Positions 210 to 62,017 of a stretch of 64,000 bases of DNA are shown piece after piece (the first letter of the stretch is position 1; the number at the start of each line of letters is the position of its first letter). The notes under the pieces were generated by a model that was given only the letters and a program-made list of their open reading frames with translations, was not told the origin of the DNA and searched no databases. The DNA is from Membranipora membranacea (lineage: Eukaryota > Bryozoa > Gymnolaemata > Cheilostomatida > Membraniporidae), in NCBI GenBank assembly GCA_914767715.1, contig OU612072.1, positions 9,424,001 to 9,488,000 on the forward strand, written 5' to 3'. The position numbers and the translations under genes were made by a program.

Positions 210-1134
210 CTGCTGTGTACACTTCAGCTCCCTCACTTTCTGATACTTCTATGACATGCACATCTTGTGACATTAGACATTGTTTTTTCTCTTTGCTGTA
301 ACTGAATGATAAGCAGCAAGTTGAGTGGTAGCAGGAATAGGCACATGACGTTATGGAGGCAACCTCGGTAGTGTTATCCACAGAACTAAGATGACTGTTT
401 GGGAGAGGAGAATATCTTATGTGCATCTCTTTACATTCTACGGAATCCAAGTTCTTCTGCCGCAAAACAGAATGGTGGTGAATCATTGAGTCACATCTCA
501 TTGAAAAGATGATGACATTAAATGTGACTTGTGAGCGCAATCTAGATTGATTGATTAAAGTATGATTGAGTAAAATAAATATAAAATGCATTTCGAACTC
601 ATCTTGTTGGAGCGATACCTCATTAATCATCATCAGCTTACCCTGATACAAAATTCAACCATACAACCAATATGATTTCATAAACCAATATAATGTGTAG
701 ACCTAAGGAATATAAATCATTCATCCTTTTCAAATAATATGTCATTCTTATGGTTTCAACATTATTTCTTAAGCAAAAAGTAACAGTTATGATGAGAGTT
801 TGCTATTTAATGAGAGAGTTCACGAGTAATTTAAAAAAAATCTAGAGTACCGCTCCAGCTAGCCTGATGTACTGTTAGATAAATACTTCAAAATAAATAT
901 TTCATCATACACTGATGTATAATTGGAGAATTTTGTTTATGTTAGCTCGCTAGTAATTGTAAGGAATAAACTGACACAACCCGAATGCTCTGAGAAAAAA
1001 ACATAATATATTACAAGACAAACGAATGTCACTCCTAGTTAACTATTAAATAATACAGGGACTCGGATGATGCTGATACTCACACAGAGAACAAGAACAG
1101 AGAGAAAATACAGGAAGATTAGATAGAACTTCAT
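210..1134 (-). CDS. M0: 5' part of a secreted PAN-module gene, cut by window edge
   Basis: Two exons are visible. Exon 1 (1134-1084) encodes a hydrophobic signal peptide, MKFYLIFLYFLSVLVLC, and ends at GTGAGT in phase 0. Exon 2 (456-210) opens after a CAG acceptor in phase 0 and ends in phase 1 at GTACTT. It carries the family's module A with the core SCAYSCYHSTCCLSFSY and a following Cys near QCLMS. The length (247 nt) and both phases equal those of module A in M2 and P1. No stop interrupts it. Later exons (module B and the C-terminal module) would lie beyond position 1, so the subtype is unknown. Bases 1-209 would be intron. PAN/apple modules are disulfide-stabilised protein- or sugar-binding folds of secreted proteins; the ligand here is unknown. 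Confidence 0.8.
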
Positions 1135-1341
1135 GCTGTCTCCAGTGTTCCAGATCAAATGGAAGCTTACATTGATACATTCCCATTATCGCTTCATATT
1201 ATTCACTAATGGTTGGCCGTAAATTATTTATGAAAATGAGTATTCAGACCGCTAGAAAACATGTGTGCAATTCATCATAAGCTGTCTTGACATCAGAGAA
1301 CATGGCTCAATTAAGAGAAATTATACTGATTCCCTACCCAT

Positions 1342-4382: not shown

Positions 4383-7300
4383 CTAGTCACAAAGTGATGT
4401 AGAATAAAACACACTGTTATCGTCGGCCTGAAGTTCTGTCGACAAAGCGTCCTCTGCTGTACCCAGCATACATAGTCTATCAGATACATAGTAGTTAACA
4501 ACCTCACATGATGATGAAGTTATACATATCACCACACAGTCATATTCATCGCTTACCATGTGTGTACTCAATGATAGCGGAAGATGTCTTTTGTTTTGCC
4601 AAACACACAATGTTTCTGATCGTCCCACCACAACTTAAAAAATAAACAAATGAATTATAAATTTAAGTTGGGCAGAACTTCTTGGGCTCAAAAATTAAAA
4701 AATCACGATTTCGAGACAGTTTCTTATAAATGGGTAGGTTGCAAGGTTTTACCAAGAATTGCTATTCATTCTTCATCATATCTAGGACTTTGACTTGATG
4801 ATGTTGTCTTGAAATCCAATCACCTTTTGTCCACACTGAGTTGCTCCAGCGTCCACCACAGACTTGAGACTGGTCGCCTGAACAGTCCATATGACACCTT
4901 TCCTCATTTGCTTTTCCCTGGTTTCCGAAACTATTGTCACAAAAGCAGTGTGAACTATACTGCATTCCAGCGTAAGTGTACCCTGTCAATGGAAAGTTTA
5001 ATTTAAAAATTGTGTTTAGCAAATACGATCAGGGCGATCCAAACATGGAGAAGTACCTAATTATAACATCCACAATATTTTAGATATCATATCTAATCGA
5101 GCAACGGGTTCATTCTGAATGAAGGATGTCAATTGCTTATTCTCAATAAAACTTTAAAGGGTTCCTATAAATATCAAACAATCATTATGCGACAAGCATG
5201 ACTAATGGACAGACAGTGAAAACGAACCTCTACCCCAACACAATTCGATGCAGTAGTCGATGGTCATATTGGCACCCTGCTCGTGAACATGACTCATATC
5301 ACGATTACTGCTATCGTTATAGCATCCAATGTACTCTGGAACCAAAACTGAAGAATAAGAAAGTCTGTCGTGTTAATATAATTCTGCAATATAATAATTC
5401 TTAGTTTTCATCAGCGTGATAAATAAATGTATGCTCACAATGCTTTCTGTATCGCAAGTCTACACTGAGAATTCTCAATGGCGTATCGGGGTCGCATCCC
5501 CTAAGAGCAGCTGGCATGTAATATTAAACAAAGGCAATTGGATTATGGCAGTGTGAATAAAACCTATGAATCTGAGCGGTTGATAGGAATTATTATGATG
5601 AAAGTTTTATTCTATATGCAGAAGCCAGACTCTCCATTCATTTATAAAATGGGATATAAAATTCCTCTTCCTCGGATTATTTCAAACCCCGCAACATGAC
5701 ATAGGAACGGGAGAAACAAGAAAACATTATGTATTTATAGATTAGGATTGCTCATAAGTAGAAATGCAAGTTTTTTCAACTCATCATCATAATTTGGTCT
5801 GTAAAACAGCAATCTTCTTCAAGTTGGCGCTGAAATTTTGGAATTACATTATACTGCAGCATCAAACAACGCTACTCAAAATGGTTTTTGTTAAGCTTTG
5901 GTAAAACATTAATCCATACCCATCAAAGAATACACAAAGCACCGCAGTTTAAACAAAGGGTGAGTCTCACTACAATTATGATTATTTGTGAATAAATATA
6001 GGTCAAAACAAAGGTAAAACAAATGGTGAATAATCTGAGTATATGATGTGCTCGAACTCTATATAGTCCATATTGCCTGGGCTATGACAGGACAATAACT
6101 GTTAACAGTCTATAGCAGCCATGTCTTGGGGTCATGCAGATCAAAATTGATCATGTGTCATGAGATACAAAATCATAACATGGCTATCTCCATCTACTGA
6201 GTTTTAACTGATACATTACGTTATAACAAATGTTAACAGGCACCAAGTTGCTGTTCTAAGTCCATATATTAGATTTGACATCAAAATGGATACCGCCATA
6301 GATTCGACCTAATGTTTTGCCTGTTTTATAACACAGAGTTATGTTTTCATGACCAAACTACAACCAAATATTTTTTAAGAGTTTGACAGTGTGAATAAAT
6401 CAATCAATCAGCATTGCATTCACATAGTGGTCCTATCTGTCTTCATTTCCCCAATTTTATACGAATGCTATGAATATAGACATTTTAAATGTTTACGCAA
6501 CATAATAGTACTGAGGGTAGGATATTGAATTAGGATAAACAATTTATTTTCAAATTTTTATGCGCATGTTCATACTAGGAAAGGAAGCTTATTCTTACCT
6601 GGTACTGTGAAATTGAATATTTTTATCGGATCAGCAAAGGAATTCTTGACTTGTACTTGCTGAGCACTGCTTAGATTTGTTACAGTGGTAAGCTCAGGGC
6701 TGCTTGACATTTGACAGTTGTTCCCTTTGTAGGAAAAGCCGTTGCATGATCTGTTTCTGATACAGGCATATTCACAGCACCAATAAGACTGAAACTTGAC
6801 AGACTGATCATCATGGAGTAGGGTTAAGTTTTTGTAGTTCTCAAACATATAACCTGCAATAAAAGTCATTTGATTCAAATTGACAAAAATTTTGTTCTGT
6901 CACTGAGTCTATTGGAATATATATAGCAAATATAACTAATTCATATTTATATCGCAAATATTCTTACACCTATTGGGAAAATAATTTGCACCCACCGAAT
7001 GGCAACATCCGGAAAAGAAATCAGTTGATACTACTACAGTAAGAAAAAAAATATATTGAAAGTGAAACGATTCAAAGCACTCTTGGGAAAACCTAAAATA
7101 CATTTTTGAGATTCTTATAATGTAATGCATTTATGACTATGTAATGCACTGCATTCATCTTTGTTGATGAATTCAGCCTCTACAATTTATTTAATTTGGT
7201 AGAAATAACAGCTTATTGGATTTTTACAGTGCATAGTTGTAGATACCTTGTACATTAGCGAGTGGAAAGTTTATAATAATATATATATTCCTCACCTAGA

Positions 7301-8864
7301 ACGGCTATGAACTTATTCAGTGTGAGAATATTACACTATTGCAACTCTAACTGCCAAACTATACATTGACCTGATCTTTGGGTACTCCTCAAATAAATGA
7401 AACTCTTATGTTTTCACCCAAAAATTCATCATCACCTAGCCTTCTTTTTGCTCCCGGATTTCTGAGAAATATTTGCGTTGATTATTCAATAACATATACA
7501 TATAATTTTCCATACCTGAGGGTTCAATTTTATCATTGGCAAAATATATGCCTTCCTGAATAGCAGATGTCCTCAAGTAGACAGTACTTTGAGTCTCATT
7601 AATGTTGGTGTGTAGGAGACTTGTAACATTAGACATTCTGCAGAGCTCTTGGTCCTCCTGGTATGAAAACGCTTTGCATGATTTGTTACTACTGCATTTA
7701 GATTCACAACTCCTCCAACAATTAGTCACCATTTCGACATTGACATGCTCCAAATCCGCTCCTGATTTTCTGCTGAAACTTGAATCTGTAAAAGATGTTT
7801 TGATGTTTGACAATTAAACAGCCAGTTTTGGGGTTTGGTGATAAAAAGTCCTCAGAAAAATGTCTAATGGATTTAGAGCTATCAACAATGGTTACAATGG
7901 TGCTAGTAACAATGGTGCTCTTTTTCATTAATGGAACGCTTTATTTTGACAAAATGCTTTTTTCAAATTTTGTTATCGTCAATTACTTGAGAGAGACCTT
8001 GACTTGAGAGGAATAAAGAATAGAGCCCCTCACCTTCAAGCATACAGACCTCAGTTAGATTACTGGGGATGCTGGGAAAAGTATCTGGCTGTTCTGTAGA
8101 TGTCATGCAGTTTGGGGAGGGCATGCTTTCATTATAGCTGAAGGCTATGCAGCAGGGTGAGTGGTAGCAGAAGTAGGCACATGCAATATGTGAGGTAACA
8201 TAGGTCGATGCATCTGGCGAGCAAATTACACTTTTCTCTTCCAAATAAGTAAAGCTAACATGGGTCACTGTACTTTCTCCAAATTGCAGGTGTATCTGTC
8301 AAACACAAGAAAAGACAATGGCCAACAGATTTCATAAGAATAATATTGATTTATGTCAACTCTTGTTTATACTGGCAAGGTTTCTATCATTTATATACAC
8401 TTTTGAATGCAAAAATAAAACATTGATATTGATTTTAAATTGCTACTGTAACATCTGTACATTGTTAGATAGAGTATTGGTTCTGCTAATGAAGAAATTT
8501 TTTTTTATCCCTTGTGCAAAAGATAAGCATGCCATAGGAATGGTGAAGTTTTAACTCTTAGTTGTAAGAAAAGAAAGTAAGTCAAATTATTTTAAACTAG
8601 CCACAAGGATTAGCTTAATCATGAACTTAGAAATTTCAATTTTTATGAATTCCCATACCCTTAAAAAACTTGAAAAAACTACAAGCACAGATGATAATTG
8701 AGAAATGATCAGATGTTAAGGTATAAAGCAACATGCTGGATAATTTAAAATGAAACCAGGATGATAGAAAGCTAGTATGTTCTATGAAGTGGATCTGAAC
8801 TTTATGTTCTTCTTACCATTATAATAGAGAAGAATGTTGCCATGAGATCGCAGAAGTGCTCCAT
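4383..8864 (-). CDS. M1: secreted PAN-PAN-PAN-WSC-PAN protein, intact
   Basis: Seven exons (minus strand): 8864-8817, 8295-8034, 7785-7516, 6853-6599, 5347-5228, 4982-4824, 4633-4383. They sum to 1365 nt, a 454-residue protein ending in TAG, with no internal stop. Every intron is GT..AG; the first is phase 0 and the rest phase 1. Residues 1-16 are a signal peptide (MEHFCDLMATFFSIIM). Residues 17-103 are module A (CAYFCYHSPCC), 104-193 and 194-278 are B-type modules (CWRSCESKCSSNKSC; CCEYACIRNRSC), 279-371 form a WSC domain over two exons, and 372-454 are the terminal PAN module (CVVICITSSSCEVVNY). The donor after the first WSC exon, GTTCGT, is weak. No transmembrane segment follows, so the product is probably secreted. 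WSC domains bind glycans in some proteins; the ligand here is inferred only in kind. Confidence 0.85.
4824..5347 (-). other. WSC domain of M1, split by a 245-bp intron
   Basis: The two exons 5347-5228 and 4982-4824 join in phase 1 into a WSC domain with all eight expected cysteines. The first half opens with EYIGCYND and runs through DYCIELC. The second half has YAGMQYSSHCFCDN, ERCHMDCSGD and QVCGG. The opening GCY, the central CFC and the closing C-x-GD..CGG pattern are classic for the family (yeast Wsc sensors, animal polycystin-1 and Kremen relatives). This is the only WSC in the window, so M1 is a C-terminal-swap variant of its FN2 and LamG paralogs. Confidence 0.88.
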
Positions 8865-15333: not shown

Positions 15334-17988
15334 TTAACAATTTTGCCAGTGAGTATCCTGGCGTCCAGTATCATCACAAATATCAAAAAAGCAGCACCAG
15401 GGTCTGGTATGGGCCACGATTGTACACTGTATGTACAAAGTGCCACTGTACGTAAATGGAATGTGGCAGAGTGTGCCGTACTTTGCCTGGGCTGTGAAAA
15501 ATAAAAAAAAAGGTAATGTACATGCGAAAAAGTATATGGAAGGTCATAGCAACTAGTTAAGAGATAGTTGACATGATGATGATTTGGAGCCTATGGATCA
15601 CCGATTTGCTATTTCATAATCATGTTTTCTTATTGTGTTTTTTAACCTCATTATCCTAAAAAAGTAACCGTACATCACAAACCCTACCAACAATGTACTA
15701 TTTCAACTCTTGTTGCAATCTAACCTTCTGCTGGTATCAATAAACTTTTCACATGAACACTTGTGTCTCCACTTGTTCTCATACTTATGGCTGTGGATGC
15801 TGTCTGACAATTATTATCTCTATGGTTCCATATGAATGCCACACAAAAGTCTTCAATGGTGCAGATAGCTTGACAGCAGTAACGGGTTAGACAGGATAAC
15901 CGGTTTGACCTTGGCTGTAATAAATCTACTCCACTATACTCAGTGTAAATCTCATTGTCTGAAAAAGAATAAAGCTCATGTGGTTATCCTTATTCCTTAC
16001 TTTCTCAACAAACCTCTAAATAGGTAATCTGGTGATTTTTCCTGTACCACCTGGCTTATAGTTCATGTTACCTTGATCTCATTATCAGTATAAATGACTT
16101 ATAAATTGATGTTATGTGCTCTTATAAAATAGATTGCTGTGAAACCAACAAATTTTTCAGTAGAAAGTTGGTTCTGTCAATGATCTATCCCGATATTGAC
16201 AATTTTATTTTGTTTGAAAACAATCAAGCAACTGCATATGAATATGAATATCTGAACAATAACTAGTCAAGTACAAATTAGCATTCACATTCCTTCTAGT
16301 CCAACACTTAATATTACTGATGAAACCTGGTAATATCTATTTGCCGGATAACTTGAGATAGAGCTATGTAATTAACCTAGTCGGCTGATGTTTTGCCTTA
16401 AGGGCGAAGTCAACAAGACTAAAATCCGCTGAAACATTACACTGCAGGTTATCCCTGGATGAATGAGCTTACTGAGCTAACTACAAAACTGGTAAGCGGA
16501 CCTGGGGTGTTCAATGTACTGATATTGTAGATAGTAGATATAGATATAGTAGATAGGCCTCGGATGCTATGTTTAAGTGCACCAGCAATGGTTTGTCTGA
16601 AATGAGGCACTTTCCTCCGCTTCTCTGAACTGCAACACATGATTCAATTTTTGCGCAAAGTGCTTGACAACAACCAGGTAGTTGGTCCTCAACTGTATCT
16701 ACAACATGCAGCAGTGTCATATTCAACTGTCTGTTGAAGTCGACATCTGTAAAAAAATGAACACCAAAATAGCCAGAGTTTTTGTTGAAGACAAAGTATC
16801 ACTATCCTAGAAATTGATGAGAAAGAGATGATTAACTATGACCTTTATGATTCAAATGTTAGTTTTGTTAATTTTTATTTCAAGCTTGTGATGTCATCGT
16901 AGGCTGACTTTTTCATCTTATCATTTAGAGTGAATCAAGCCTCGCATGTGTTTCAATAATTACATGATACATGTACCCAATTTGATCTAAAAATCTCCTA
17001 TCCTTACCTGTCCTGTATATTTCAGCCTTATCATCATTGGGCAATCCTCTCTTAGCAAAGTTATTAAACATGTGACATCTTTCTGTTCTGTTGTTGAAGC
17101 TGAATGACACACAGCACATCAAGCGGTAGCAGGAATATGCACAGGAAGTAACCGAGGGGGCCTGGGTGCTGTTATCCACAGAATTAAGTTAAGCATTTTC
17201 AACAGGAGCGAATCTGATGTGCCTTACATTGCCTTTGATCATGTTCATTGTCATCTGAAACAGATGAGGAATTGAAAAGCTATAAAACATTCTGAGAATC
17301 AGTCTAGCTGTTCTATGTCATGTATTTAATTTTATCTGACAATATTGTATGAAATAAATGATTTGAAAAACTTATACATAGTCTTATCAAATCATTTCAG
17401 TCTTCTTAAAGGGCAACCAAGGTTTCGCAGCAATGCATTGGTGGGTAGTAAATAATGTGCTAGGCAGCATCAGCTTTGTGCATTACGCGATGCAAAACTC
17501 AAAGTAGTTGCTGACTCTAAGCTGGGTGACACTTCAGTTTAGGGGAGGTTCAAAGACATTGCTGTAATAATGATAGAGCACAGGCTAAATAATAACAGGA
17601 ACAGGAAACTGCTCTGTGGTATTCCATTTTAGCAGAGTTTGAGTACCTGATGGATGAATTGTTTCACAAGAATTCTGGCTGAATAATCAATTAAATTAGA
17701 TTTTTTCTGTTTCCCTATACAGAAGGTACGATCTGCTATCAATTGATGAGAACTTGTTTGAAACCTTGGTTGCCCTTTAAATGTACTTTCTTTGCTTTGT
17801 TTTTCACTTTCAGCGAACATTTTCAATACCAAAAGCGCATTATTGTGCCTTCAATCTTATCACAGTACCACAATCAAATAACATAACCTCTACTTAGTTT
17901 AACAACAATCATACATTACACCAATGGTAGTACTTACAATCAAGATTAGAACAGAGAACAAATTTATGAGAGAAGCAAACATCTCCAT
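15334..17988 (-). pseudogene. M2: PAN-PAN-PAN-FN2 gene with nonsense and frameshift
   Basis: Five exons (minus): signal peptide 17988-17938 (MEMFASLINLFSVLILI), module A 17254-17008, module B 16746-16502, module B2 15958-15725, FN2 15491-15334 ending TAA. Splice sites and phases follow the family plan. Two lesions break it. A TAA stands at 17191-17189, where paralogs have a Tyr codon (the 'ENAYL' position). Module B is 245 nt, not 264: a net loss of 19 nt near 16520-16560, where TATCTA-like simple sequence replaces coding sequence, shifts the frame. Its donor (GTCCGC) is also weak against GTTTGT in paralogs. B2 and FN2 remain open, so inactivation looks fairly recent. P2 is the intact counterpart. 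Confidence 0.85.
17406..17780. mobile_element. MITE with 17-bp TIRs, flanked by TTAA
   Basis: The 367-bp element 17410-17776 has perfect inverted ends, AGGGCAACCAAGGTTTC and its complement. TTAA stands at 17406-17409 and 17777-17780. It has no coding capacity. The same family forms the cluster at 30187-31329. TTAA duplication would point to piggyBac; if the first A belongs to the TIR, the target is TA and a Tc1/mariner origin is possible. It lies in intron 1 of M2. Confidence 0.85.
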
Positions 17989-18690: not shown

Positions 18691-18738
18691 ATAAGATTAG
18701 GCACAACCCTAAATTCATTTCGTTGCATGACATTATTC

Positions 18739-18818
18739 CCTGCGAGTAGTGTTCGAACCTACGCGGGAAGATCCCAATAGATTTCAAGTCTATCGCCTTA
18801 ATCCCTGACCATCGCAGC
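18739..18818 (-). tRNA. tRNA-Ser(UGA)-like sequence, probably pseudogene
   Basis: The 80-nt minus-strand sequence starts GCTGCGATGG and has the anticodon arm ATAGACTTGAAATCTAT with a perfect 5-bp stem and anticodon TGA. A long variable arm (TGGGATCTTCCCGC) follows, as expected for a class II serine tRNA, then a T arm with loop TTCGAAC. Defects are a G:G clash at the first acceptor pair, one T-stem mismatch and a D arm one base short. No CCA is encoded. It may be a decayed gene or a SINE head. Confidence 0.7.
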
Positions 18819-34524: not shown

Positions 34525-35320
34525 CTGTTATGTAAACTTCAGCTTTATCATCATTCCCTGATCCTCTTTGAGTGGGTTTACTAGACATGTTACATGTTTC
34601 TGTATCTATGTCATAGCTGAATGACAAACAGCATATCGAGTGGTAGCAGGAATAAGCAATATGATCACATGGCCAAAACTTGGAAACTTACAAGTGCCTG
34701 CCCTTTGGGTTCAACAGAGCTATATCAAACACCAAAACCAAATCATGGCAGGATTGTTGTACAAATACTGAAGGCATCAGCGCCACAGCTCAAATCCCTA
34801 AACTATTATGTAAAAAACCACCCACCCATTACTATCAATTATTTGATAAAACTTCATTTCAACTTCTTATTATTGGAATTGCCCTTGTATCTTCAACTAT
34901 ACATTTGATCCTAAATCTGGTAAAAGTTGAATTCCGACGATGATTGTCTTATGATCAAGACCCTTTATCATAAAACGCTCAACTCATTGAAGTTTATTCT
35001 TTTTTAAGCATATGAATCAAGGCAGTTCCCAACAATTCAAATGTTGTGAGATTTGGCCTTTGAACTACGGCGTTCTTCCTGCATATGATGTTTGAATGAT
35101 AAATGCATCAGTGTATTCTCATACCCTTAATTAATTTTATTTTTAATTTTTAATCCATTAAATTCTGATGACTTTTGAGGGCCCTCAGATAATCAAAATA
35201 ATAATATCATTGATTCCTGCTTGTTTGATTTTTCATCTTAGCTACATACTGATGAGAATTACTTACGAGCAAGGCTGTAACAGCTTGAAACAAATCTAAA
35301 TAGGCGGCAGAGAGCTCCAT
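34525..35320 (-). pseudogene. M4: relic with signal-peptide exon and half of module A
   Basis: The signal-peptide exon 35320-35267 (MELSAAYLDLFQAVTALL, 18 codons) keeps its GTAAGT donor. Module A survives only as its 3' part, 34657-34525 (YSCYHSICCLSFSYD..TCNMSS), with the usual GTATGT phase-1 donor. Upstream of about 34657 the exon's 5' half and its acceptor are missing, replaced by intron-like sequence, so a deletion joined intron 1 to the middle of exon 2. No B, B2 or FN2 exon follows. A 3'-flank block shared with M2 and P1 is retained at 34140-34230, which implies a second deletion of the gene's rear. It is nonfunctional. Confidence 0.85.
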
Positions 35321-35437
35321 GCTGAACCTTCCACTGTCTCGGTTTGAAAGGCAGCTCTCAGTAATTCACTTTATTGGAATATTGCGTCAGTTCATATAGT
35401 AGTCATCTAATTGACAATAACAGTAATAATTGGTATA

Positions 35438-42939: not shown

Positions 42940-43350
42940 AACAGGACGCAGGACTTGGATGGTGATCAGATTGAAGCCATATCAGTTCTTTACCAATAAG
43001 AAGCTTTTTGATTATCATGCTTTTTGCGTTGATTTATTCTGGGATACCAAATACAACATATATCATGTCAAAATATTGATTCGAGGAGTGCGGCATGCTT
43101 GAGTTACAAAATTTTATTAAAAGCACCACGCACATAGAGTTCAACTGCATCAGATGGATTGCAGTGGGGAACGAATCAATATCGCTGGAACTAAGTGTTC
43201 ATTATTATGACTATCCACTGTTTTTTCTCATTTGCATGCAGCAATGAATGTATGGTTTATACATTAGGTTATTTTACGTGATAATGCTAAGTGCCTGATA
43301 TATTTCAGATAGGTGACAGCAAGTCTTGCCAAGCACAAGTCATCATGAAC
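42940..43350 (+). promoter_or_regulatory. Upstream block of P2 shared with M2
   Basis: It lies about 260-670 bp before the P2 start codon and matches 18270-18690 upstream of M2 in inverted orientation, with small gaps. Landmarks are GGTGATCAGATTGAAGCCATAT, AAAATATTGATTCGAG and AACTGCATCAGATGG. It is a candidate promoter-proximal region; no factor site is claimed. Confidence 0.45.
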
Positions 43351-49637: not shown

Positions 49638-52600
49638 ATGTATCTGAAGTTATTCTTGGCTGTTTTCGGTGCCTTTGCCGTTGCATGGGTAAGTTTATAG
49701 TTCGTTTTTTGTATGTTATTAATAAACAGTGTATTATTTAAATCATAATGGCCCAGTTGTTCCCTTTACCTTGCTACTCTTTATATGTCCGAACAATGAA
49801 ATATAGCATACCAGCCTTCTGGAAACGTAATTATTCACAATTTTTGATTGTTAGCTCTCTTTTGCAATTATGCGGATAACTGTCTGGTAGGGTACTAGAA
49901 AATAAGTTTGATGAAAAGAGCAGTCAACGTAAGGCAAGACCTTGGGGAAAGAAGTGCACTCCGGGTGGTATTACATTAAAAAACCTGTGTAGGCCCCTAT
50001 AAGAATTTCATAAAGCTGAATTATATAGCAGCATTGGTTTTTAGATTAGGGCATCAAAATTTAGAGATCTTTGTAGATTTTCAGATTTATGACCTCCTTG
50101 AGCTTAAAACTGTGATTAAGATTGTCCCCTATACATCGGCTTAACAATTAGTATTTGAATCCTGTTATAAAGGAGCAACCTATATCCTTACACATCTGAT
50201 AATCGGATATTTTTATACTGAAGATAAATTACTTTTTGTTACAAAAGAGCATATCAGGCAGGCATGGTAAGGGTATACATTTTAAAAGGAGATAGATAAC
50301 ACTATGATACAAGCAATAGAATCTGACCTTTTAAGTAAAAAGAGCTACTCAAAATGCTTGATTAGTTTGAGTTGTTCTTTGGCAGCAAAATTTTGAAAGA
50401 TGTCTACTTTTAAGTCAAGACACCGTTAAAATCTCAGAACAAAAAATAAACAGTTTTATGATGTCTTGTGTGCTTGGTGTTTTTTATCACATTGATGTGT
50501 GAAGATTGAGCTAACAACAAAATATTATTAGCATGTACAAAATAGCATGAGTTCAAAGGGAGATGATGATGATATTATCCAGCTCCGAGGGAGTATATAT
50601 GCAATAATAATTAATTAATTGCGATATTGATTTAAAGAGCTGAAAACCAAAGGCACCACAATGGATGGACGGAAGGATATTTTACAATCACTGACAAACA
50701 AGCCATAAAACTTGATGTAGGCACTGGTGCTGGTAAAAGACAAAAACATAGAAAAATCAGATGTCTGGGATAAAAATTAACAGATTATACCTTTTGGGGT
50801 GTTGTCGAATATTGTAAAAAGAAGTCTCGGCACCAAGTGCCTCTGTACCTCATGGTGCGGAAACGCCATGATGTGCATTTTTATAGGAAGACATTTAGAA
50901 ACAGACCTCAACATGAATTTATCTGAGAGCAAGTATCTTAGTTTAAGCGGTTATCAGAGCATTGCATTCCCCTAACAATCAGAGTAGTTGCCATAAGTTT
51001 GCTCTCTGACAAGTTATAGAAGGGATCATCAAATCATCCCAAATTGTACACTGATGTCATATTGGTTTGCCTAGATAGCAAGTTTAATTTGAGTAAATAA
51101 TAATAGACCTCTATGGTGTTGTGTACCCTCTACCATGTTCAAAATCAGCCCTACTGTTTGAAAAAGTATGCATACCTTAGTATTGATTTGAAAAATTCAA
51201 GATAAACAGCTTTGTTGTTGCCACCCTTCAATAAATATAACCTTCAAAGCTAAAATGAGCTGTATTCGATCATACCTCTGAATAATCAATGTATAGCTTG
51301 TACATGAAAAATGTAAACTACACGTATGACAGTTCATCATATTTTCTTCATCCACAGATTGTTCTAGCCGCATAATAATTTAAAAACCATATGAATGTAA
51401 ATGATATGTGATGATTTATGAGACTTTCCAGATGCAGGTTGCATGGTTTTGAATGCAATTAGCAAACTTGATGGCATGAATCGTAAATAAATGTTGGAAT
51501 ATACATATATTGACAGCTAACTGACACTGTTAATTATTGAGAAATTAAAACAGCGCTGGTATCGTTTTCACACAGTGTGCGGAAATTACCCCTACCTTTT
51601 TAATGAGCAGACAACAGTACAGTGCCCTCTAAAAACATTATAATTAATGTGGACTATTCACAGCCTGTCTAAGCTTGCTTTACCATTCTCCATGTTTAAA
51701 CGAATTCAGTGACGCTTTTGACTGTTTAAAAGAAAAGTAAGCTGGACACAACTAGGTGGTTGTGCACTTTCAGCCTTTCTCAATTATGAAGTAAATAATA
51801 CCCATCCTGACATTTAGAAATTGATTGATTCTTTGTTTTGTGAATCGAATAAGCAAACCGCTTTTGTAATCATATCATGCTTGACATTTTCCAGTTTTCT
51901 ATAATAAATAACATTGTTTGCTATTTTAGAGCACATCACAGTCTGCAGAAAGTACAATTACCCATATAAGGTTTACCAGAGCAGAAGATGATGCAGAATT
52001 ATCTTCTACAGAGTCAAGCACTTATGTGAATTCCCATACTGCCTGCGCGTACTTTTGCTACCATTCACCGTGCTGCGTAGCCTTCAGTTACTGCGACGAA
52101 ACCAATGCAACCAACTGCAATACCTCTTCCGAGCATCCCCACACAACCAGACTGAGAAAGTTGCAAAACCAAGAAGAAGTTCATGTCATGCAAGGTAACT
52201 AACCTACCCATCTTAGAGATACCTTGGTAACAACTGATTATGAATGAGTATTTTAAATACAGTCTCTAAGTGCCTTATAATCTCAGTATTTTATAGTGCA
52301 CTATTCTATATTGCCCTGTGATGAAAGATTCATAAACCAAACTTATTTGAATAAAGACTGACCATAGGTGATCTAACGTACCAAAAAATCACAAACTACA
52401 CCTGGGAATTTTCCTTTCACATGAATAACAAATATCCTTTTATTCGTTCCTCTAGATTCTTCTATCATACAACACGACAATGTATCGTTGCTAAGTTTCA
52501 GCGTCATGAAGAATGCTAAATGCTGGCGAACTTGCAAAGATATTTGCACAGCAAATCAGTTATGCAATGCCTTTGAACACAATGGGACCTCCTGCAAGAC

Positions 52601-55600
52601 ATCCAAGCATGTAATACTTCTGAACGACAGCGGAAGTGTAGGAGGTGTTGTCTATTCAAAAGTAGCGGCTTTGAAAATCACTGCACTCCACGACATTTCA
52701 CGGGACGATGAACTAGGTGAGTATATTAAGAAATTAGCTTAGAATATAATTTTGACTAGTGCAACTCCTTCATTTAAAAGTGAATTTTATCGACTAAGAC
52801 TCTGTGTCCTTTTCGGGGATATCACTGATGTGTTGGGTTAACCAAACAGTTTCCTTCATGCCAATTTGTATATATATTATCTGTATCTGCATTCACAAAG
52901 GTAATTTACCTGTTCACAGATTTTTGCAGCTGGTTATCAGATAGAACTTTGATAAAAAGCTTATTTTTTGCTAAATTCCATTTTCATAGCGCAAGAACTA
53001 TGTGTTATTCGTTCACCAAGGACAGCCAATCAGGAAAATATTCGCGCGGTTTATTGTACCCAAACTGATTATGATAACCCCAGGCCAATTATTCAGGCAA
53101 AAATATGCATGATCCTCAAACATGATGAAAAAATCATGGGAAATGGTTTTACTTGCATATATCATCATAAGGCTGTAACAATCATTGTAGAGAAGGAAGA
53201 CCTAATGTGCACTAGAACAAATTTACAATCCGCTCAACACATCATTGAGAATATCAGCTGGGGGAACTGCGCACTTGCCTGTGCTAATCTGTCATGTGGG
53301 GCTCTGGCATACCAGCCTGATGTAAAGAGATGTGAAATATCTGCAGAGAGAAGACTTGTCTACTCCAACCAGCATGTGTGTGACAGCAGCGCAGATATCT
53401 TCATAGCAACTAGAGACATAGATCAACCAGCTATACATGATGTTGTTAATGTATGTAACCCTGTCTACGGAGACTATAATGAGAAATAAAAAAATCTACT
53501 CAGGCATCAAATATTGCAACAATTATGCCAAAATTCTATGGACAGGAAAATTTCAAAGCTCCACTTGTAAACAAAAACCAATTCATCAGTATCTTACTCT
53601 AAGCTGTTTGTGTATGATATAGAAATTGTCTTTGACCTTCGAAAATTCAGTCCGCAAAACCTGAGTCATGGAAGGGTTTATTTCTCTTTGAAAGAAAATT
53701 CAGCTTTCATCTTATTACATGAAACAGGAATGAAAACTGTGCTCTTATCATCAGAGGGAGCAACATTATTATGTAACAAATCTTTCTTCTGTCATTGATA
53801 AGGTATTCTACATAGCTGCCGGCTCAAGTTGCCTTTCTAAAACTGCTTTTGAGCTTGAATGGTGTTTAATCAGTACATTAGACTCTCAATTCACCTGAAC
53901 CAGTATTGAATGGATCATTACCGGACATGACTGCAATGGTCCGACCCACTATCAATACTGCAGTGTTACAAGACTTCACAAGACCTTCTTGCGGATTTTG
54001 CAATAAAATTGTTCCTTATTAAACGCAGTGATATTGATTAATTTGCTTACATGAGCATTACATTGATTGATAAAACATTTTCATTGTTATATATCAATAA
54101 TTTACCTTTTTAATTTTTACACAGATAACATTCCTCCTCTCTCACAGTACTAAACAGCACCTATATTTTCTGGTTGATGAGAGAACTTCTGACCGAACCT
54201 TGACAGGTTATGTATCCAATGCCTCATCTCTCAACATGTGTGCCTATAGATGCTATATCAGACCAGATTGCATTTCTTTTCACTACAACCCCGAGACCAA
54301 CAATTGTACAGTATCGAATAAAAATCCTTCACTGACAGGGATAAATGAGCAGACAAGGAATGGAATCTTTTGGTTAGGAGGTAAGATATATTCTGTGAGC
54401 TCATAAATGTTGCATTCTTACCCATCTTATTTAGGTCACATAGGAAATATTCGAATTATGTTTTTTGTAAGGATTAATATCTGGAGATTGTTCTTTTGAT
54501 ATGCTGCTCTAGCTTGCATTGCACAGGAATAACTTAGAGTTGATGTTGAAATTAAGTTGGATTCTGGTGAGTCGGAGTCTGATAAAAACAGGAATGTAAA
54601 CTTGAAGTATTTTATGATACAAGTGCATAACTGGTGTCTATGCTGGTGTCATATATCATTCCATCTTATGATCATTATATTCATTTCTCGTGTGCGCAAT
54701 CTTAAGCTATATATTCCTCAAAGTTGAGGGTAATGGCAGTCAATCAGGGCATGTACCCAGGATTTTCGGCTCAGTGGCTTTTGATTATCCACATGACTAA
54801 AGAGTTGGATATTGGCATATGAAGAGGATAAAAATCAATTAAATTTAAATTGAAAGCATTTAAATTAAAAAAAATGGAAAATTGATTAATGGTTCTCACT
54901 GGCTAACTAAAATTACCTCAGTGTTTACATGATATTCTAAAACACAGATCATCTTGACGTAACGTTAGTAGGGTAGTGGTAGGGTCCCTTGTAAAATAAA
55001 TTAATTAACCACTTTCATTTGACACTAATTTTGGCAGATTGCCGATGCTGAGAGCCCATTGTTTCAACAACAGTAAGATCTTAAAACAGAACTTGGCCAC
55101 CTGACCAAAGTATGGAGAACAAGATGTGATAGAAGAAAAAGTTGCACATATTGATTAATTGACTGAAGCATGATGGAAATGACTGCTTATCATGACTGTA
55201 TCACTTTTCCCCTGGATTGAGTTGGCCCAAAAATTTGATTATGATGAGTCTCTTCGGTGTGTTTCTAGCGAGACAACCACATATATTGAAAATCACTTTT
55301 GAAGAAAGTCTAAAAGAAAGAATCTCCATATATACGATGAGTAATTGAATCAAATACGAAGTAAGAAATTAAAATGTAGTTTTTTTTAGACCCGGCAGAG
55401 TTCAATAAGTACAGACAGGCTAGCTTGCTTCATCCAACATATGCTACTACTGAGTGCAACTCCTGGGCATGTTGCCGAGCTACTTGTGCAAGGAATAATT
55501 CTTGTGTGGCCTTTGAATTGGCAGACAGTTGTCAAATATCAGGTGATGCAAGAAGTATAGATACAAGCCTTGGCTCAAGCATACAAGTGATGTCATCATT

Positions 55601-58600
55601 CTCAGGCAGCCGCGTCTTCTACAGCATAACTTTGCTAACTTCTTCAGGTAAGGCTTAAATAAGAAAACATTAACTCCATTTTTAACTCATCAGAATAGAA
55701 TACAATGGTTTACGGTTTATACTACGTGCCACTGAGACCAGGTTTATGCTCAAGCCCTGTTTATGACAAAGCAGAGGGTGGGCTGCCCCTAAAGAGGGAC
55801 GCAAGTTGCCCGGAGTCCTCATACTGGGAGTGTGATACATCCTAGCAAGCTAGAATGCATCCTAGAGGTGAGGCCATGGTGGACCTCCTAATCGTGAGTG
55901 TGCAGCAAGCTGCCAGAAACTGAAACAGGCACTAATCAGCCATTAGCCATGACACTTTGATCTTAGCCAATAGGCCGAGAAGCGATCGGTTTACTCTCAA
56001 GCCCCCCCTTGAGAGTAAACCGATCGCTGGAGTAGACCTCTGGCAGCTATGCCTGAAAGGCTGTTACACAGCTGCTGAGTTACCCCTACCCTACTTGATC
56101 AACAGTGTTGATAGATATTCGCATCCCTGTTTTGATTACTCAGAGATCATTAAAGAGACAAGGAATGTGTCAGAGCATAATGGATACTGTATTTGGAATC
56201 TCCATGCTTCATTACACATACCCACCAATTTGTTATCACTCTGCTGCAATCCAGTGTTGAGATATAGGCAACACTATCTGATGGTTGTATAAACAAAATA
56301 TTAGGGGATATCCCCTTAGCTGTGACCTAGATAGAGGGAGTTCCCTCTAGGTCACATGACACTTTGCGTTGACAATCATTATCATTATCATCATTATCAA
56401 GTATTTTAGTATTCTGGTATCTAATCAAGCTCTTGATCTAGACTTATAACTTCTAAGCCCTTACATGAGCTCCATTGAATTCCATATCTGGAATAGCATC
56501 ATTAGCTTTCTTTTGCAAAACAAAGGGCTTGCAAAAATAGCCAGTCCCTAGTAGCAATCTAGAAATGCCCTAATCATCGACACTGTAGGGGTATAATTAC
56601 TGTTTGCAATTTTGTAAACAAGACAATTTCTCAGGCTAATTATTCATGCTACTAGGGACAGCCAATCAGATAACAGTCAGATGGGTCCCTGTGTTTAGTG
56701 TCCTAACCGTATAACGCTATGATACTATTTCCATTCTAAGAGAAGAATCTAATTCAGTGATGAGCTCATATAGAATAGTGTTTGGACTGTCTCCAGCCTG
56801 CTATAACAGCATCTGTTTCCAGAAATTACTATAATTAGCTCACATAATGATCATCACACATCATCTAACGACGTCATCAAATTCTTGGAGTTACCTCCAC
56901 CTAACTCCAAATTCTTTCCCCACACTATTTGAATAACTTCTAGAATATGATACTGACAGCCTTGCAAAATGGTAATTGCAATGGAGCATGGAAGTTTCAA
57001 ATCTGGCATCCGTTATGCTCTGTCCTTGTCTATGAAACTTTGACAAGAAATATGTAATATGTGTGTACGTTTCTACACCAGGTTTGTGTTATACATGCTC
57101 TAAGCTGCTGTGATTAAAGACTAGGTTAAAAAAACACAAGCTATTTGGCGCTTCTCGGCCTATTGGCTAAGATCAAAGTGTCACTGTCAATGGCCGATTA
57201 GTGCCAGATCAGTTTTGGCAGCTCACTGCACACTTATGATTAGGAGGTCCTCTATGGCCTCACCTCTAGGATGCATTCTAGTTTTCTAGGATGTATCACA
57301 TTCTCAGTATGAGGATTAGGGCACCTTGCGTCCCTCTTTAGGGGCAGCCCAATCTTCTGTTTCTTAGCAAACAGCAAGCTATTTGGCGTATGATAATATT
57401 TATTTCTCCATTGCAAGATACAGAACTTCTGCATTAAGTCTAGTACATTATATATCAATAGTGGCAAGCCAAGAATCTCCTGACACAAGTTACCTACGCT
57501 ACAGAGGTAAAAAACTTCGGGATATCACGAAAAGCATCAAATTAAGAAATAAAATAACTGTGCCAAGCTACAACTGGACGATGTGTTTCTGGTGGAAACC
57601 AAATTCTGTGGATGTCCCAGGAGCATTGATTACTCTGTTGAGTGAATCTGAAGGTACGTTTATTTTTTAGCGTTATCAATGAAATAAACCCAAAAATAAA
57701 CATAAAAAAGCTCTCTAAAATATCGGAAATACAAATAATGCTCAATTTTGAGAAATTTTCCACAATCGATTTGTTCAATAATCAACCATTTTTCTGTAAC
57801 ACATCAACAGATCTGAATATACTTGAATCCTCGAATTGTGTTGTTAATTCTTGTCAAATCTACCCAAAGTCATCAGGAAACAAAATCATGTGTTCAGTTT
57901 CACAATCCTAATACTATGCTCTTCTAATACATCAAATATCTGTAAAATCTGAGATTGTTTGGTATTGATTGCCCAGTTTAGACAGTTCTCCATAAAGGTA
58001 TCAGCCATCAAGTGACACTCAGACTTCTTGTACTTGTTGTTATCAGCAGCACTTTATCGTAAGCAATAACAGTACGTCTAACTTATATTTGCATTTCAAT
58101 GTTTGTGATTGATCACATTCTGTTTTCATATTTAAAATCCTAATTCACTGTTGGATAATCAGTCTTTTTGTTTGACTTGTTTTCAAAGGCTCCTGAGAAA
58201 AAACTTGCTTTGAATTCTGTTGGTTTGGCAGCTATCAAATTGAGAAATCATCAATATTCTGTCATCGTTTGAGCCTAGTGGATCAGAGCTTCTTCCAGAA
58301 CAAACATCCGGTGGTTATCAGATATTGACAGCCTTTTTCAATAATCTAGTTTAATCTGGTCTAATCTTAGTGCCAAACAAAGTTTCCACCATATACTAAT
58401 CATTTTCTCTACCAGTCCCAGCAGGCAAGTCACCCATATCAACCTCATATTGACGTGCAGATAAGGTTGACGTCAATTGGACATCGGCATCTTGACATAG
58501 GTAGTCAGTATCGGGTTGATTTTGGGCTAGATATCAACATCAGTGTTGGACATCAAACTCACGTCTATCGGACGTCAATATATGGGTGTCCGGGTGCCCG

Positions 58601-61600
58601 CTGGGGTTACACTGATCGCACGGTTTTAGTCGTGATTGTTTTTTGTCTGTTTTGAAAAGGGTCAGAGCTCTTCTTACTGAAGTATAGGCATAATGGTGAG
58701 CTCCAAATCGCTTACAACGGAGAAGTTCATCATTACAATGATCTGGATCAATTATCCTTGATTTGGACACATATCTGTGTAAACCTGCAAAAAGATGACA
58801 ACAAATTCAAAGTGGAGGTATGAACTAAATATAATATAAATGTATTATTGCCGGTAATATGAATAAATCTATGTAAATGTAATATTTGAAGACAGCATTG
58901 AGCAGTTGCTTACTTCTGTGTCTAACCTAACTGACAGTCACAGGAACCATATGAAATTAATGACAATATTGAAACCCTATAATACTCTTACAGCTTACAG
59001 CCTTCTCATTTTTAACCATCTTAACTTTTTCATGTATAGTATTGTATAGTACACCAGCCTCATTAATCAACATGGACAGATTTGGTTAGCAATAATAAGA
59101 AATGTGAATATTTTATAACAGAGCCATAGTATATTAATAGCCCAGAGGATGGTTATAAATCACCTTTTGTAACTCACCAACTCGAGCTTTTTTCCACTGC
59201 ATTTTCAGGTAAAGACTAAACATACAGGAATATCAACTTGGGAAAATGAGGATAAAAACTACGGAGAAATTGGTGACAATGATGATCAGAATGCTGAACT
59301 TGTTTTATTTGACAGATCAGAAGGTAAATTAACCAACATTAAGTTTTTACAATCGTTGGAATTGAAAATTCTGAAAGCATTCCTGAACCAAACATCAGAT
59401 TAGAATCCTATTTCAGCGAATTTGATCAACAACATTCAAGATGGTTTTAAAAAATTTCTCCTGAAAAAAGTTGCAGGTCCTGACAAAATTCCTATGAGAG
59501 CTATAAAAGAGAATATACCAACAATTCAACCGGTTGTAGTAAATATGATAGACTTAGTTATACAATCATCCATTATTCAGGACTGTCTAAAAACAGCACG
59601 ACTTAAGCCTCTTTTCAAAATGGAGGTCAAATTGCAGTGCACAAATAGGGGCTATCTTTTATTTTGATTGCCCTATCGAAGATGGTAGAGAAACTTGGTA
59701 AAGGTCACTTTACACTTTTTTGGATTTAGTAAATTTAAAATTGCTTAAATTATTATGTCATATTGATGATCATTGTTTCAATTGTGTCATTCATTGATTA
59801 AAGTGTAAAAAATCAAATGAAACATCATAATACAAGGTCTATTACCCAAGCAGTTGTTTTAGATTTTTCTGATTTGCTTCATACAATAAACCACCAAATT
59901 TTACTTTGTCATTTTTCAGTATTCGCTTATCCTCTTATTTTATTTTTTTTAAACAGAAAGCAGTATTTATGAAAACTTATCAGAGATGTGAACATTACAA
60001 TTGTCCCACACGTCCCAGTTCAAGAGCCTCTTCCATTTCTAGTTAATATACATTATCTTTTAAAATCAGATCCTGAACTAAGTTTTATTATGTTTGCAGA
60101 AAATAATATCCTTTTGCGTAGACAGACGCTGAACTTTGAAAAGCAAAATTGATGAATGCTGCCTTACATATATATATTATGACAAAAGCCATCATGTTTT
60201 ATTTTGAGCGCCGGGAAAAATTCATTGTGACGGAAAAACTTTGAGAATTACATGATTAAGTAAAAGCAACTTCAATGCACATAACAATCTTTTTGCAAGA
60301 AATTGATCATAATTTAACAATGCTGAAAGCTGTTGGCCATATGTTGAGACCAATTGTGATTCTATATTACACTTTCTAAACTTCACTTAACATATGGGAT
60401 CTAGTCTGGGTTCATGCTGGACCAGCCCTGAAATCGATCATTATTTTGCAAAAGGCAGCTTTCTGTGTTATTGTTGAAGTGAGACCAATGTTTCACATGT
60501 TTCATTTGATTTTTTACACTTGAATCAATGAATGAAACAATTGAAACAATGATCATCAATATGACATAAGAATTAAAGCAATTTTAAATTTACTAAATCC
60601 AATAACGATTGGGGTGATAGGTCTCTGTTGTTTCTTTGGAATTGAAGAAACAACATTCTCTCGATATTTGCTTAGTTAGAAATTTTGAAACCTTAAGACC
60701 GCACGGATGAATGCAAGTTATCATTTTTCACCATCATACCTACACCGAATATGTCATGTAAGATAGGCATATGGAAAAATTCAAAAGCATTCATAGTACT
60801 ATGAGTTGCCCCATTACAAAGGATTATTGCCATATGCTGAGAACAAATGGAAAATACAACATGGTATCATTGTTTTAAGTAATTGTCAGTTTAATGATTT
60901 ACTTATATGAGGTAACTTTGATTAGTCTTTGGATCTGTTTGTAAGTCATGACAGCAATGGCTTCTAATCCCTCAAACATTTTTTTCAATAAAACAACACG
61001 TTTACATCATATACACCTCCTTGATAGCCCTGATATAAGATTGCAGATGGGAGAGAATGATTTCGCCTAGTGGGTGTATAATATTTCGTTCTTGTGATCG
61101 TTTTCAGAACTGATGACGGTGTCTTCACTAATGTACAAATTGAAGCGACAGTTTATCTTATCAAAGGCTCTTATCGAATATCACTGGAAATTATTTGTTC
61201 GAACTGCTCGGTGAAAACTATTGAACATTGTATGGATTAGCTGTTTAACCATTGAAACATTAGCACATTATAACGTTCTAGAAATTATTCAATATACTTT
61301 GAAGGTTGTAATGATAAGGTTTTATTGACAACAGATGATGACAAATTCCTGTCCGGAACAATAGTATGCTTCAATATATGGCGAGGTGGTTTCTCACAAG
61401 ATTCATTTGAAGACTACTCACAGTGCAATCGTGGCGGGGACATATTCCATCTTGGAGACAACTCCAAGTTCCAAAAAAGGAAGGATGCAACGATTGTCGA
61501 TTCAGGTAAAACTGTATGACTTGTTTTGTTTTTGCTGACAGTGTTGAGCAAGCGCTTAGCCTTTATACCGTTAAAACCATATTTCATTAGAATTCTTAGT

Positions 61601-62017
61601 TTCATTATGTACCAAGACTTTTGTATTTCTTTTGCCAGTCATGACTGAGGCACCATGGGTATTGAAATCTGACATTTTTTAGTAGAAAAGTTGCGCATTT
61701 TAACGATAATTCATCGTCAAGTTATGGTATGCTTTGTTTTTCTCCCTTGGATATCTATCATTGATTTTTCATTCACAGTTTTTGAAACATACTGTGTGTG
61801 GGAGAATAGACGCGGAACATCAACAGATATCATCGCCAACCTAACAGCACAGTCCAAAATGGATTGCTTGGTAAGCTGTACTGATGATGAGACATGTGTA
61901 GCTGTGAACTTTTACGAGTCTACCAACAGATGTGAGTTTTTCTCAGAAGATGTTGGAGTTACTGGGCCAGAAATCACTGATGAAACCTCTACATATTACA
62001 TGACACTTCCTTGCTAA
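49638..62017 (+). CDS. P4: secreted multi-PAN plus LamG/pentraxin-like protein, intact
   Basis: Eleven exons: 49638-49688, 51930-52194, 52456-52716, 52990-53450, 54125-54380, 55390-55647, 57462-57653, 58660-58817, 59209-59323, 61335-61505, 61779-62017; 2427 nt, 808 residues, TAA stop, open throughout. Residues 1-17 are the leader (MYLKLFLAVFGAFAVAW), 18-105 module A (CAYFCYHSPCC), 106-192 B (CWRTCKDICTANQLC), 193-346 a long exon ending in a PAN module (CALACANLSCGALAY), 347-431 a second A (CAYRCYIRPDC), 432-517 a second B (CCRATCARNNSC), 518-729 LamG/pentraxin-like (WTMCFWWK; WTHICVNL; IVCFNIWRG), 730-808 PAN C (CLVSCTDDETCVAVNF). Introns are phase 1 except after the leader, between residues 346/347, and inside LamG (634/635). 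A candidate AATAAA lies at 62529. If the 53450 donor is not used, the frame stops at 53487-53489 and 54125 onward would be a separate gene. Confidence 0.8.
52990..53450 (+). other. Unusual 461-nt exon of P4: unassigned segment plus PAN module
   Basis: This exon has no counterpart in the other genes. It begins in phase 1 (AQELCVIRSPRTANQENIR), runs about 90 residues I cannot assign, then holds a PAN-like core, NCALACANLSCGALAYQP..RCEIS. It can end at a GTATGT donor in phase 0 (53450) or read through to TAA at 53487-53489. Phase 0 fits only the phase-0 acceptor at 54125, which is otherwise typical of exon 2 after a leader exon. Confidence 0.6.
55757..55987 (-). mobile_element. SINE with U2 snRNA 5' head, copy 1
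   Basis: On the minus strand the element starts ATCGCTTCTCGGCCTATTGG, the 5' end of U2 snRNA, continuing CTAAGATCAAAGTGT before diverging. The remaining ~195 nt match copy 2 (57151-57374) but not U2. Flanks GGTTTATGCTCAAGCC (55741-55756) and GGTTTACTCTCAAGCC (55988-56003) form a 16-bp target duplication with two mismatches. There is no Sm site, so it is not a U2 gene. Confidence 0.85.
55981..56028. repeat. Perfect 21-bp-arm hairpin
   Basis: Arm 55981-56001 (AGCGATCGGTTTACTCTCAA plus G) is exactly complementary to 56008-56028 across a six-C loop. The left arm is made of the U2-SINE 5' end plus its target duplication, so the palindrome arose at the insertion junction. It lies in the P4 intron before LamG exon 1. 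Smaller inverted repeats follow near 56303-56360 (for example CCTCTAGGTCAC with its complement). Confidence 0.9.
56473..56759 (+). mobile_element. hAT-like MITE, short copy, in P4 intron
   Basis: 287 bp, from CATTGAATTC to AATTCAGTG, between perfect 8-bp duplications ATGAGCTC (56465-56472 and 56760-56767). It is nearly identical to 37528-37809 and to the ends of 35438-36099. Confidence 0.92.
57151..57374 (+). mobile_element. SINE with U2 snRNA 5' head, copy 2
   Basis: It starts CTTCTCGGCCTATTGGCTAA (U2 5' end less a few bases) and is flanked by the perfect 14-bp duplication CAAGCTATTTGGCG (57137-57150 and 57375-57388). The body matches copy 1, including GGATGCATTCTAG and CTCTTTAGGGGCAGCCCA. 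It ends near AAACAG without a poly(A) tail. It lies about 75 bp before P4 LamG exon 1. Confidence 0.9.
58417..58605. mobile_element. 189-bp MITE with CCCAGC..GCTGGG ends
   Basis: The left end CCCAGCAGGCAAGTCACCCA and the right end (complement CCCAGCGGGCACCCGGACAC) are imperfect inverted termini. The interior is rich in TTGACGTC and GGACATC palindromic words. The superfamily is not assigned. It ends 54 bp before LamG exon 2 of P4, close to the branch-point region. Confidence 0.7.
59416..60150 (+). mobile_element. Degenerate non-LTR reverse transcriptase in P4 intron
   Basis: The first part (to about 59700) encodes KKVAGPDKIPMRAIKE and, in another frame, ALSKMVEKLG. A second part (about 59845-60150) encodes AVVLDFSDLLHTINHQILL, then SFIMFAENNILL, where LINE elements have a FADDT-type catalytic box. 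The motif order is right, but stops, frame changes and the changed catalytic residues make it dead. The two parts are separated by one arm of the inverted repeat at 59722-60600. Confidence 0.75.
59722..60600. repeat. Inverted repeat, ~105-bp arms
   Basis: The arm at about 59722-59826 (from GGATTTAGTAAATTTAAAAT) recurs inverted at about 60494-60600 with few differences. The left arm interrupts the reverse-transcriptase remnant and the spacer contains its second half. The arms are either two insertions of one MITE or the ends of one fold-back element. Confidence 0.75.

Follow-up and report, generated by a model that had tools for sequence, protein, structure and literature searches.

A cluster of predicted secreted PAN-module genes in Membranipora membranacea that has probably exchanged its C-terminal tails

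How do neighbouring genes come to share one front and carry different ends? The question is raised by a 64,000-nucleotide (nt) stretch of the bryozoan Membranipora membranacea (assembly GCA_914767715.1, contig OU612072.1, forward-strand positions 9,424,001 to 9,488,000; hereafter the window), in which a cluster of paralogous genes combines a common leader and PAN modules with several types of C-terminal tail. The reading that we consider probable from the sequence is that these paralogues encode secreted PAN proteins whose tails have been exchanged at phase-1 introns, and whose function we infer.

A six-frame search with module profiles, combined with exon displays and a check of splice sites and frame, located nine copies, five on the minus strand (in transcription order, right to left, M4, M3, M2, M1 and M0) and four on the plus strand (P1, P2, P3 and P4). 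Only M1, P2 and P3 are complete and open (3/9 copies), all with AG/GT sites: M1 reads leader-A-B-C'-WSC1-WSC2-T (452 residues), P2 reads leader-A-B-C-FN2 (318 residues), and P3 consists of leader-A-B and a T-like terminal exon (358 residues, or about 290 if a second acceptor is used). Four tail types follow leader, A and B: C' with WSC and terminal PAN (M1), LamG with terminal PAN (M3 and P4, with the architecture A-B-LamG-T), terminal PAN alone (P3), and C with FN2 (P2 and the other two FN2 copies, M2 and P1). M0 runs out of the window after exon A. The original prediction spoke of eight gene copies that share leader, A and B exons, a wording that overstates the cluster, since four of the nine (M2, M3, M4 and P1) are broken. 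The shared front was recovered to the extent of a leader in 8/9 copies (all but P4), exon A in 9/9 (in M4 its 3′ half only) and exon B in six of the eight copies with a B region inside the window (not found in P1 and M4).

The evidence for exchange comes from the positions at which homology between copies ends. The match between M2 and P2 starts about 670 nt upstream of the leader, continues through introns 1 and 2 up to exon C and stops 5 nt past the C splice donor; that between P1 and P2 stops 6 nt past the same donor. M3 matches P2 across leader, A and B (exon B is 66% identical), and this homology stops 15 nt past the B donor. Using 30 shuffles per segment as a control, we found that intron 2 of M2 and P2 is clearly conserved, with an identity of 0.70 (shuffled mean 0.44, maximum 0.51), introns 1 and 2 both retaining about 70%. 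Intron 3 has an identity of 0.48, no better than shuffled sequence (mean 0.47, maximum 0.56), and the 3′ flank is likewise at shuffled level (0.45; mean 0.45, maximum 0.56). The tail swap at phase-1 introns of the original prediction is thus supported by the homology ends at the B and C donors together with the loss of identity in intron 3.

A second line of evidence is provided by sites in M2, P1 and P2 at which two copies agree and the third does not. The deviating copy is P2 at 17 of 82 such sites in exon C and its flanks; its share rises to 32 of 71 in the FN2 exon (Fisher p = 0.0017) and to 39 of 69 in the flanks of that exon (Fisher p = 8e-6). A faster FN2 exon alone would leave the flanks unchanged, and the P2 excess extends to them; a replaced P2 end is the best reading, with the 3′ end of P2 having presumably come from a more distant FN2 copy.

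Several observations weigh against this reading of the cluster. Within the FN2 exon, 26 nt of M2 and P2 remain 92% alike, the donor of the P2 FN2 end does not lie in the window, and P2 is the fastest copy in exon A as well. Between M2 and P1, intron 3 taken as a whole and 300 nt of 3′ flank also lie within the shuffled range (0.53 and 0.48, respectively, with a maximum of 0.55 in each case); local matches between these two copies persist around FN2 (expectation value (E) 1e-17) and further downstream (E 2e-9). In the exon A region, M2 agrees with P1 at 51 sites and with P2 at 35, a split no different from that in the FN2 region (71 and 41; p = 0.56), and the pattern is opposite in the leader (5 with P1, 15 with P2) and in exon C (17 and 40). 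The mosaic is thus not simply two-part, and conversion may have been wider. Furthermore, the proposed function is drawn from domain names, and the exon joins are predictions from homology, frame and splice signals. The exons, by copy, are as follows.

1084..1134, minus strand: M0 leader exon, 17 codons, phase-0 donor
210..456, minus strand: M0 exon A (PAN), PAN_1 29.3 bits; the remaining M0 lies past the left edge
8817..8864, minus strand: M1 leader exon
8034..8295, minus strand: M1 exon A (PAN)
7516..7785, minus strand: M1 exon B (PAN), PAN_1 32.1 bits
6599..6853, minus strand: M1 exon C' (PAN-like), 17.9 bits, under cut-off
5234..5347, minus strand: M1 first WSC exon, WSC 72 bits across both WSC exons
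4824..4982, minus strand: M1 second WSC exon
4383..4633, minus strand: M1 terminal PAN exon T with stop, PAN_1 28.6 bits
17938..17988, minus strand: M2 leader exon
17008..17254, minus strand: M2 exon A, broken, in-frame TAA at 17191-17189
16502..16746, minus strand: M2 exon B, frame lost, 19 nt shorter than P2 B
15725..15958, minus strand: M2 exon C (PAN-like), 19.4 bits, under cut-off
15334..15491, minus strand: M2 FN2 exon with stop, fn2 27.0 bits
26017..26067, minus strand: M3 leader exon
25080..25320, minus strand: M3 exon A (PAN)
24533..24796, minus strand: M3 exon B (PAN-like), by alignment to other B exons
24172..24369, minus strand: M3 LamG exon 1
23464..23618, minus strand: M3 LamG exon 2, TAG at 23538-23536, phases as in P4 LamG exon 2
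21470..21664, minus strand: M3 LamG exon 3
20322..20575, minus strand: M3 terminal PAN exon T with stop, 43% identity to M1 T
35267..35320, minus strand: M4 leader exon
34525..34660, minus strand: M4 exon A, 3′ half (gene remnant)
38929..38979, plus strand: P1 leader exon
39804..40050, plus strand: P1 exon A, broken, in-frame TAA at 39996
40641..40873, plus strand: P1 exon C, frame lost, 1 nt shorter than M2 and P2 C
41202..41353, plus strand: P1 FN2 exon, 5 cysteines, not 6
43609..43659, plus strand: P2 leader exon
43776..44034, plus strand: P2 exon A (PAN)
44304..44567, plus strand: P2 exon B (PAN-like)
45116..45349, plus strand: P2 exon C (PAN-like), homology to M2 and P1 stops 5-6 nt past the donor
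45644..45792, plus strand: P2 FN2 exon with stop, site patterns and flanks unlike exon C and introns 1-2
49638..49688, plus strand: P3 leader exon
51930..52194, plus strand: P3 exon A (PAN)
52456..52716, plus strand: P3 exon B (PAN-like)
52990..53489, plus strand: P3 terminal exon with stop; T-sized if a second phase-1 acceptor, at 53191, is used
54125..54380, plus strand: P4 exon A (PAN), phase-0 acceptor, no leader recognised upstream
55390..55647, plus strand: P4 exon B (PAN-like), 14.9 bits, under cut-off
57462..57653, plus strand: P4 LamG exon 1
58660..58817, plus strand: P4 LamG exon 2
61282..61505, plus strand: P4 LamG exon 3, join to exon 2 out of phase
61779..62017, plus strand: P4 terminal PAN exon T with stop

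Two of the broken copies, M2 and P1, carry several lesions each: M2 has the TAA in A and the shortened B, and P1 combines the TAA in A with the lack of a recognisable B, the 1-nt deficit in C and the loss of one FN2 cysteine. M4 amounts to a leader and half of A, with gaps where P1 has C and FN2. The lesion of M3 is the TAG in its middle LamG exon, and a single lesion of this kind could be a sequence error; the alignment score of this exon with its P4 counterpart was reached by 0 of 2000 shuffles. In P4, no leader was recognised in 53420-54120, and the only two open stretches in 53000-54122 both lie within the P3 terminal exon. The misfit between its LamG exons 2 and 3, the one P4 LamG join that is out of frame, is due to a missing small exon or another acceptor. 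A strict search found no such small exon. Of two candidates from a further search, neither of which was accepted, the one at 59209 (115 nt, phase 0 to 1) fits the exon 2 donor, not the chosen exon 3 acceptor, and the one at 59050 is weak.

In the three intact models, all ten post-leader introns are phase 1, in line with the prediction that almost all internal introns have this phase. The modules were also said to be symmetric, which holds after the leader in these three models and fails for the leader introns, as all eight leaders found have phase-0 donors, and for LamG exon 2, the donor of which is phase 0 in both M3 and P4. The pattern fits the class 1-1 rule for extracellular modules as set out in passages of PMC8001218, with leader-A as a fixed start.

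A check with hidden Markov models placed three of the four predicted module types, PAN, WSC and FN2, over their Pfam cut-offs and the fourth, LamG/pentraxin, just under. PAN_1 exceeded the gathering cut-off in the single exons M0 A, M1 T and M1 B and in the whole products of M1 and P2; PAN was below cut-off or unmatched in M2 B, M2 C, M3 B, P4 B, M1 C' and the P3 terminal exon, with M2 B and M3 B giving no PAN match in the Pfam scan of single exons. The WSC region of M1, which has eight cysteines, scored 72 bits (cut-off 27.8) and matches Kremen-1 at E 4e-7. The fn2 score was 27.0 bits in the M2 exon, over the cut-off of 22.2, and 19.1 bits in intact P2, under it, yet all 42 profile positions align. 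LamG_3 reached 27.3 bits in P4 and 26.5 in M3 (cut-off 27.6), and Pentaxin 14.7 and 19.2 for the two LamG copies (cut-off 25), with X filler placed at LamG joins; these exons match neuronal pentraxin-1 weakly (E 0.34).

The assignment of the B exons as PAN-like is supported by comparing profiles and, with low confidence, by fold. The profile built from ten B and C exons could be aligned with that of the A exons (probability 58, E 1e-4) and with that of terminal PAN (probability 71, E 4e-5). Searched against the PDB, it gave 24 sequences up to E 1, the top three being MIC5 and HGF (E 0.16-0.54; MIC5 0.16, HGF 0.47), which is non-significant; the other 21, acetylcholine-binding proteins with E of at least 0.69, were taken as chance. 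The predicted fold of P2 exon B has a mean predicted local distance difference test (pLDDT) score of 56, and the first 20 Foldseek matches of this model are PAN/apple-domain proteins, the best at E 0.04 and none at or below 0.001. They include a domain of SML-2, which we take to be an apple domain, and a copper oxidase. Passages of PMC9024836 describe a PAN/apple domain in the copper oxidase and assign the WSC fold to the PAN/apple fold; therefore, the WSC tail is not structurally unrelated to PAN. The three unrelated C-terminal modules of the original prediction are thus distinct tails made of real domains, with P3 adding a fourth and WSC sharing the fold of the front. The P3 terminal exon aligns to T with all six invariant cysteines kept and 17% identity. 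In a tree of PAN modules, the A modules group together (91/92), as do the three clear T modules (100/98), the P3 terminal PAN is placed with weak support (23/17), and the tree leaves 10 of its 19 inner branches open. Exons A and B contain five cysteines each in P2, M2 and M3, and four and six, respectively, in P4; A has six in M0, P1 and P3 and seven in M1. Perhaps a disulfide between A and B locks the front in P2-type copies.

With respect to shared history, several stretches of M4 recur in P1 in inverted orientation. One large palindrome was ruled out, as only M2/P2 and M4/P1 form inverted pairs over long non-coding stretches; the match between M1 and P3 is confined to part of exon A (71 nt; synonymous divergence (dS) 2.1). 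The non-coding matches within the two pairs are about 70-80% identical, excluding a shared mobile element at 92-98%, and thus appear too diverged for haplotypes, which argues against an assembly or haplotype duplication. About 400 nt upstream of the leaders, M0, M2, P2 and, by eye, M3 have DNA in common (e.g. 1749-1693, 18394-18338 and 43236-43270), for which M0 has two matches around its 193-nt tandem repeat, and which is possibly a common promoter element.

Taken together, the paralogous genes and remnants would encode soluble, secreted, disulfide-rich proteins, in which a leader exon joined to PAN module A in phase 0 is followed by PAN module B and then, via phase-1 introns, by the tail. 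Duplication, as in the two inverted pairs M2/P2 and M4/P1, and mutation would drive growth and decay of a birth-and-death family, and recombination or gene conversion would swap tails from one copy to another, breaking in the intron shortly after the splice donor so that the frame is kept. The tail would set the binding target and the front would act as a common scaffold, as the domain content suggests. Soluble secretion is predicted from the short hydrophobic leader exon in 8/9 copies; in M1, P2 and P3, mean hydropathy stays at or below 1.26 in every 19-residue stretch beyond the first 35 residues, and the products contain 11, 8 and 7 N-glycosylation sequons, respectively.

Which function such proteins serve was approached through selection and domain content. 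Third-position differences are the most frequent in 7/7 exon pairs, indicating coding constraint. Pairwise ratios of nonsynonymous to synonymous divergence (dN/dS) were finite in 34 of 38 comparisons, many of which involve broken copies, and saturated in dS in the other four; all 34 are below 1 (0.19-0.88), which does not bear out the diversified recognition originally predicted. The seven comparisons of B, C and T gave 0.19-0.42, each with a bootstrap range below 1; in many A pairs, and in two of the three FN2 pairs, the range extends past 1. These values lend no support to diversifying selection, although pairwise averages may hide single sites. Judging by the domain names, humoral or mucosal recognition is the most likely setting, at somewhat less than an even chance, extracellular matrix or egg coat is clearly less likely, and gland secretion is the least likely of the three.

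PAN, WSC, FN2 and LamG are general extracellular binding modules. For PAN and WSC, passages of PMC9024836 describe binding in this capacity. This generality, together with dN/dS values that indicate constraint and not diversification, would also be expected if the family were structural, made up of matrix proteins of mucus, cuticle, shell or egg coat without a role in recognition. We consider this doubtful, though the best surviving of the alternatives: 4/9 copies are broken and the tails turn over, which we would expect more commonly in recognition or secretion families.

The alternative that no exchange occurred, with tails fixed in ancient genes and passed on vertically, would attribute the breaks to fast introns and an accelerated 3′ end of P2. 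It would account for the strong divergence of M3 from P4 (LamG exons 25-37%, T 29% identical), as expected for an old shared architecture, and for the presence of a T or T-like exon in M1, M3, P3 and P4, by which A-B-...-T may be ancestral; the fast exon A of P2 also fits. However, introns 1 and 2 of M2/P2 stay at about 70% while intron 3 drops to shuffled level, the P2 excess in the FN2 flanks at least equals that of the exon, P2 is the slowest copy in exon C, and M3 has leader, A and B in common with the FN2 genes and not the tail. We therefore regard descent without exchange as unlikely. Larger transcription units, in which alternative splicing picks a tail or front and P4 uses the P3 leader via a phase-0 join, would suit the leaderless phase-0 acceptor of P4 exon A and the phase compatibility of leaders and A exons between copies, but are improbable given the own leader in 8/9 copies, the conservation upstream of several copies, suggesting separate promoters, and the own stops of M1, P2 and P3.

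Searches for relatives of the cluster elsewhere were negative. The protein search with M1 gave 0 of 802 candidates at E 10, that with P4 exon A gave no candidate, and the search with alignment A1 gave 1 of 1599, this single match being P2 exon A of the window itself, extended into the intron with TGA translated as Trp. Pattern searches gave 29 matches in GTDB contigs and 77 in viral contigs, none of which was confirmed. As the searched collections probably cover animals poorly, we take the absence of relatives to mean little.

Besides the nine copies, the window contains decayed and repetitive sequence. Just past P4 lies a decayed WSC-like stretch with in-frame stops (63625-63762, plus strand; own-profile E 2e-4, no Pfam match), and a much weaker LamG-like stretch is found at 63150-63290 (E 0.27). 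Copies of a dispersed repeat at 35425-36106, 37521-37825 and 56473-56762, most 97-99% identical, are probably a recent mobile element. Open stretches at 28274-28588, 47725-48255 and 59404-59667 resemble, by eye, the reverse transcriptase of long interspersed nuclear elements, with no confirmation by Pfam. Nested direct and inverted repeats occupy 30186-31330 (354-nt arms, 97% alike), and related DNA occurs at 17405-17748 (90-93%). At Rfam gathering level, the window has one transfer RNA (tRNA) only, a tRNA-Ser(tga) at 18738-18818 on the minus strand, about 0.75 kilobases upstream of the M2 leader (ARAGORN; Rfam tRNA).

Several known systems resemble the cluster in part. PAN/apple proteins (the microneme proteins MIC4 and MIC5, SML-2, factor XI and HGF) come out on top when A and B are compared by sequence or fold, mostly without reaching significance; their architecture differs, Pfam sees no protease domain here, and the likeness is at fold level only. 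The LamG exons of P4 and M3 can be aligned with Laminin_G_3 and Pentaxin at scores under the Pfam cut-offs; unlike pentraxins and LamG_3 proteins, they have PAN on both sides. Among WSC proteins such as Kremen and yeast Wsc1, the M1 region resembles Kremen-1, a type I transmembrane protein according to passages of PMC9024836, whereas M1 has no transmembrane-like stretch beyond the leader. With class 1-1 exon-shuffled extracellular proteins, as characterised in parts of PMC8001218, the cluster shares phase-1-bounded modules and predicted secreted products; it differs in its phase-0 first intron and fixed leader-A, and in that the exchange would have occurred between neighbours that still share intron DNA. 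The gastropod VIgL proteins (FREPs, CREPs and GREPs), as presented in passages of PMC5433772, are likewise secreted and join a common N-terminal domain to alternative C-terminal binding domains, with an immunoglobulin front and a fibrinogen, C-type lectin or galectin tail in place of the two PAN modules found here. The Pfam scan of the M1 and P2 products and of the joined P3 exons gave no immunoglobulin domain, and neither exons nor products showed a fibrinogen, C-type lectin or galectin C-terminus. Lacking an immunoglobulin domain, the cluster is therefore not a VIgL member. We tentatively suggest, as a possibility, that it is a PAN-based counterpart of snail VIgL, in which neighbouring paralogues swap whole binding tails by recombination at the first intron bases behind a fixed, disulfide-rich PAN front, leaving no two intact genes with the same tail. 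No description of this domain combination was found in the titles and opening lines of abstracts among the literature matches listed.

Inferences of exon shuffling mostly draw on ancient and distant genes. In this window, paralogues still share introns, so that breakpoints could be placed within a few bases of splice donors, making the cluster a clear small example of a known evolutionary process. If the exchange is real, the locus would let exon shuffling be dated within one gene cluster, and confirmation in related genomes would allow direct measurement of how fast and in what order tails were exchanged.

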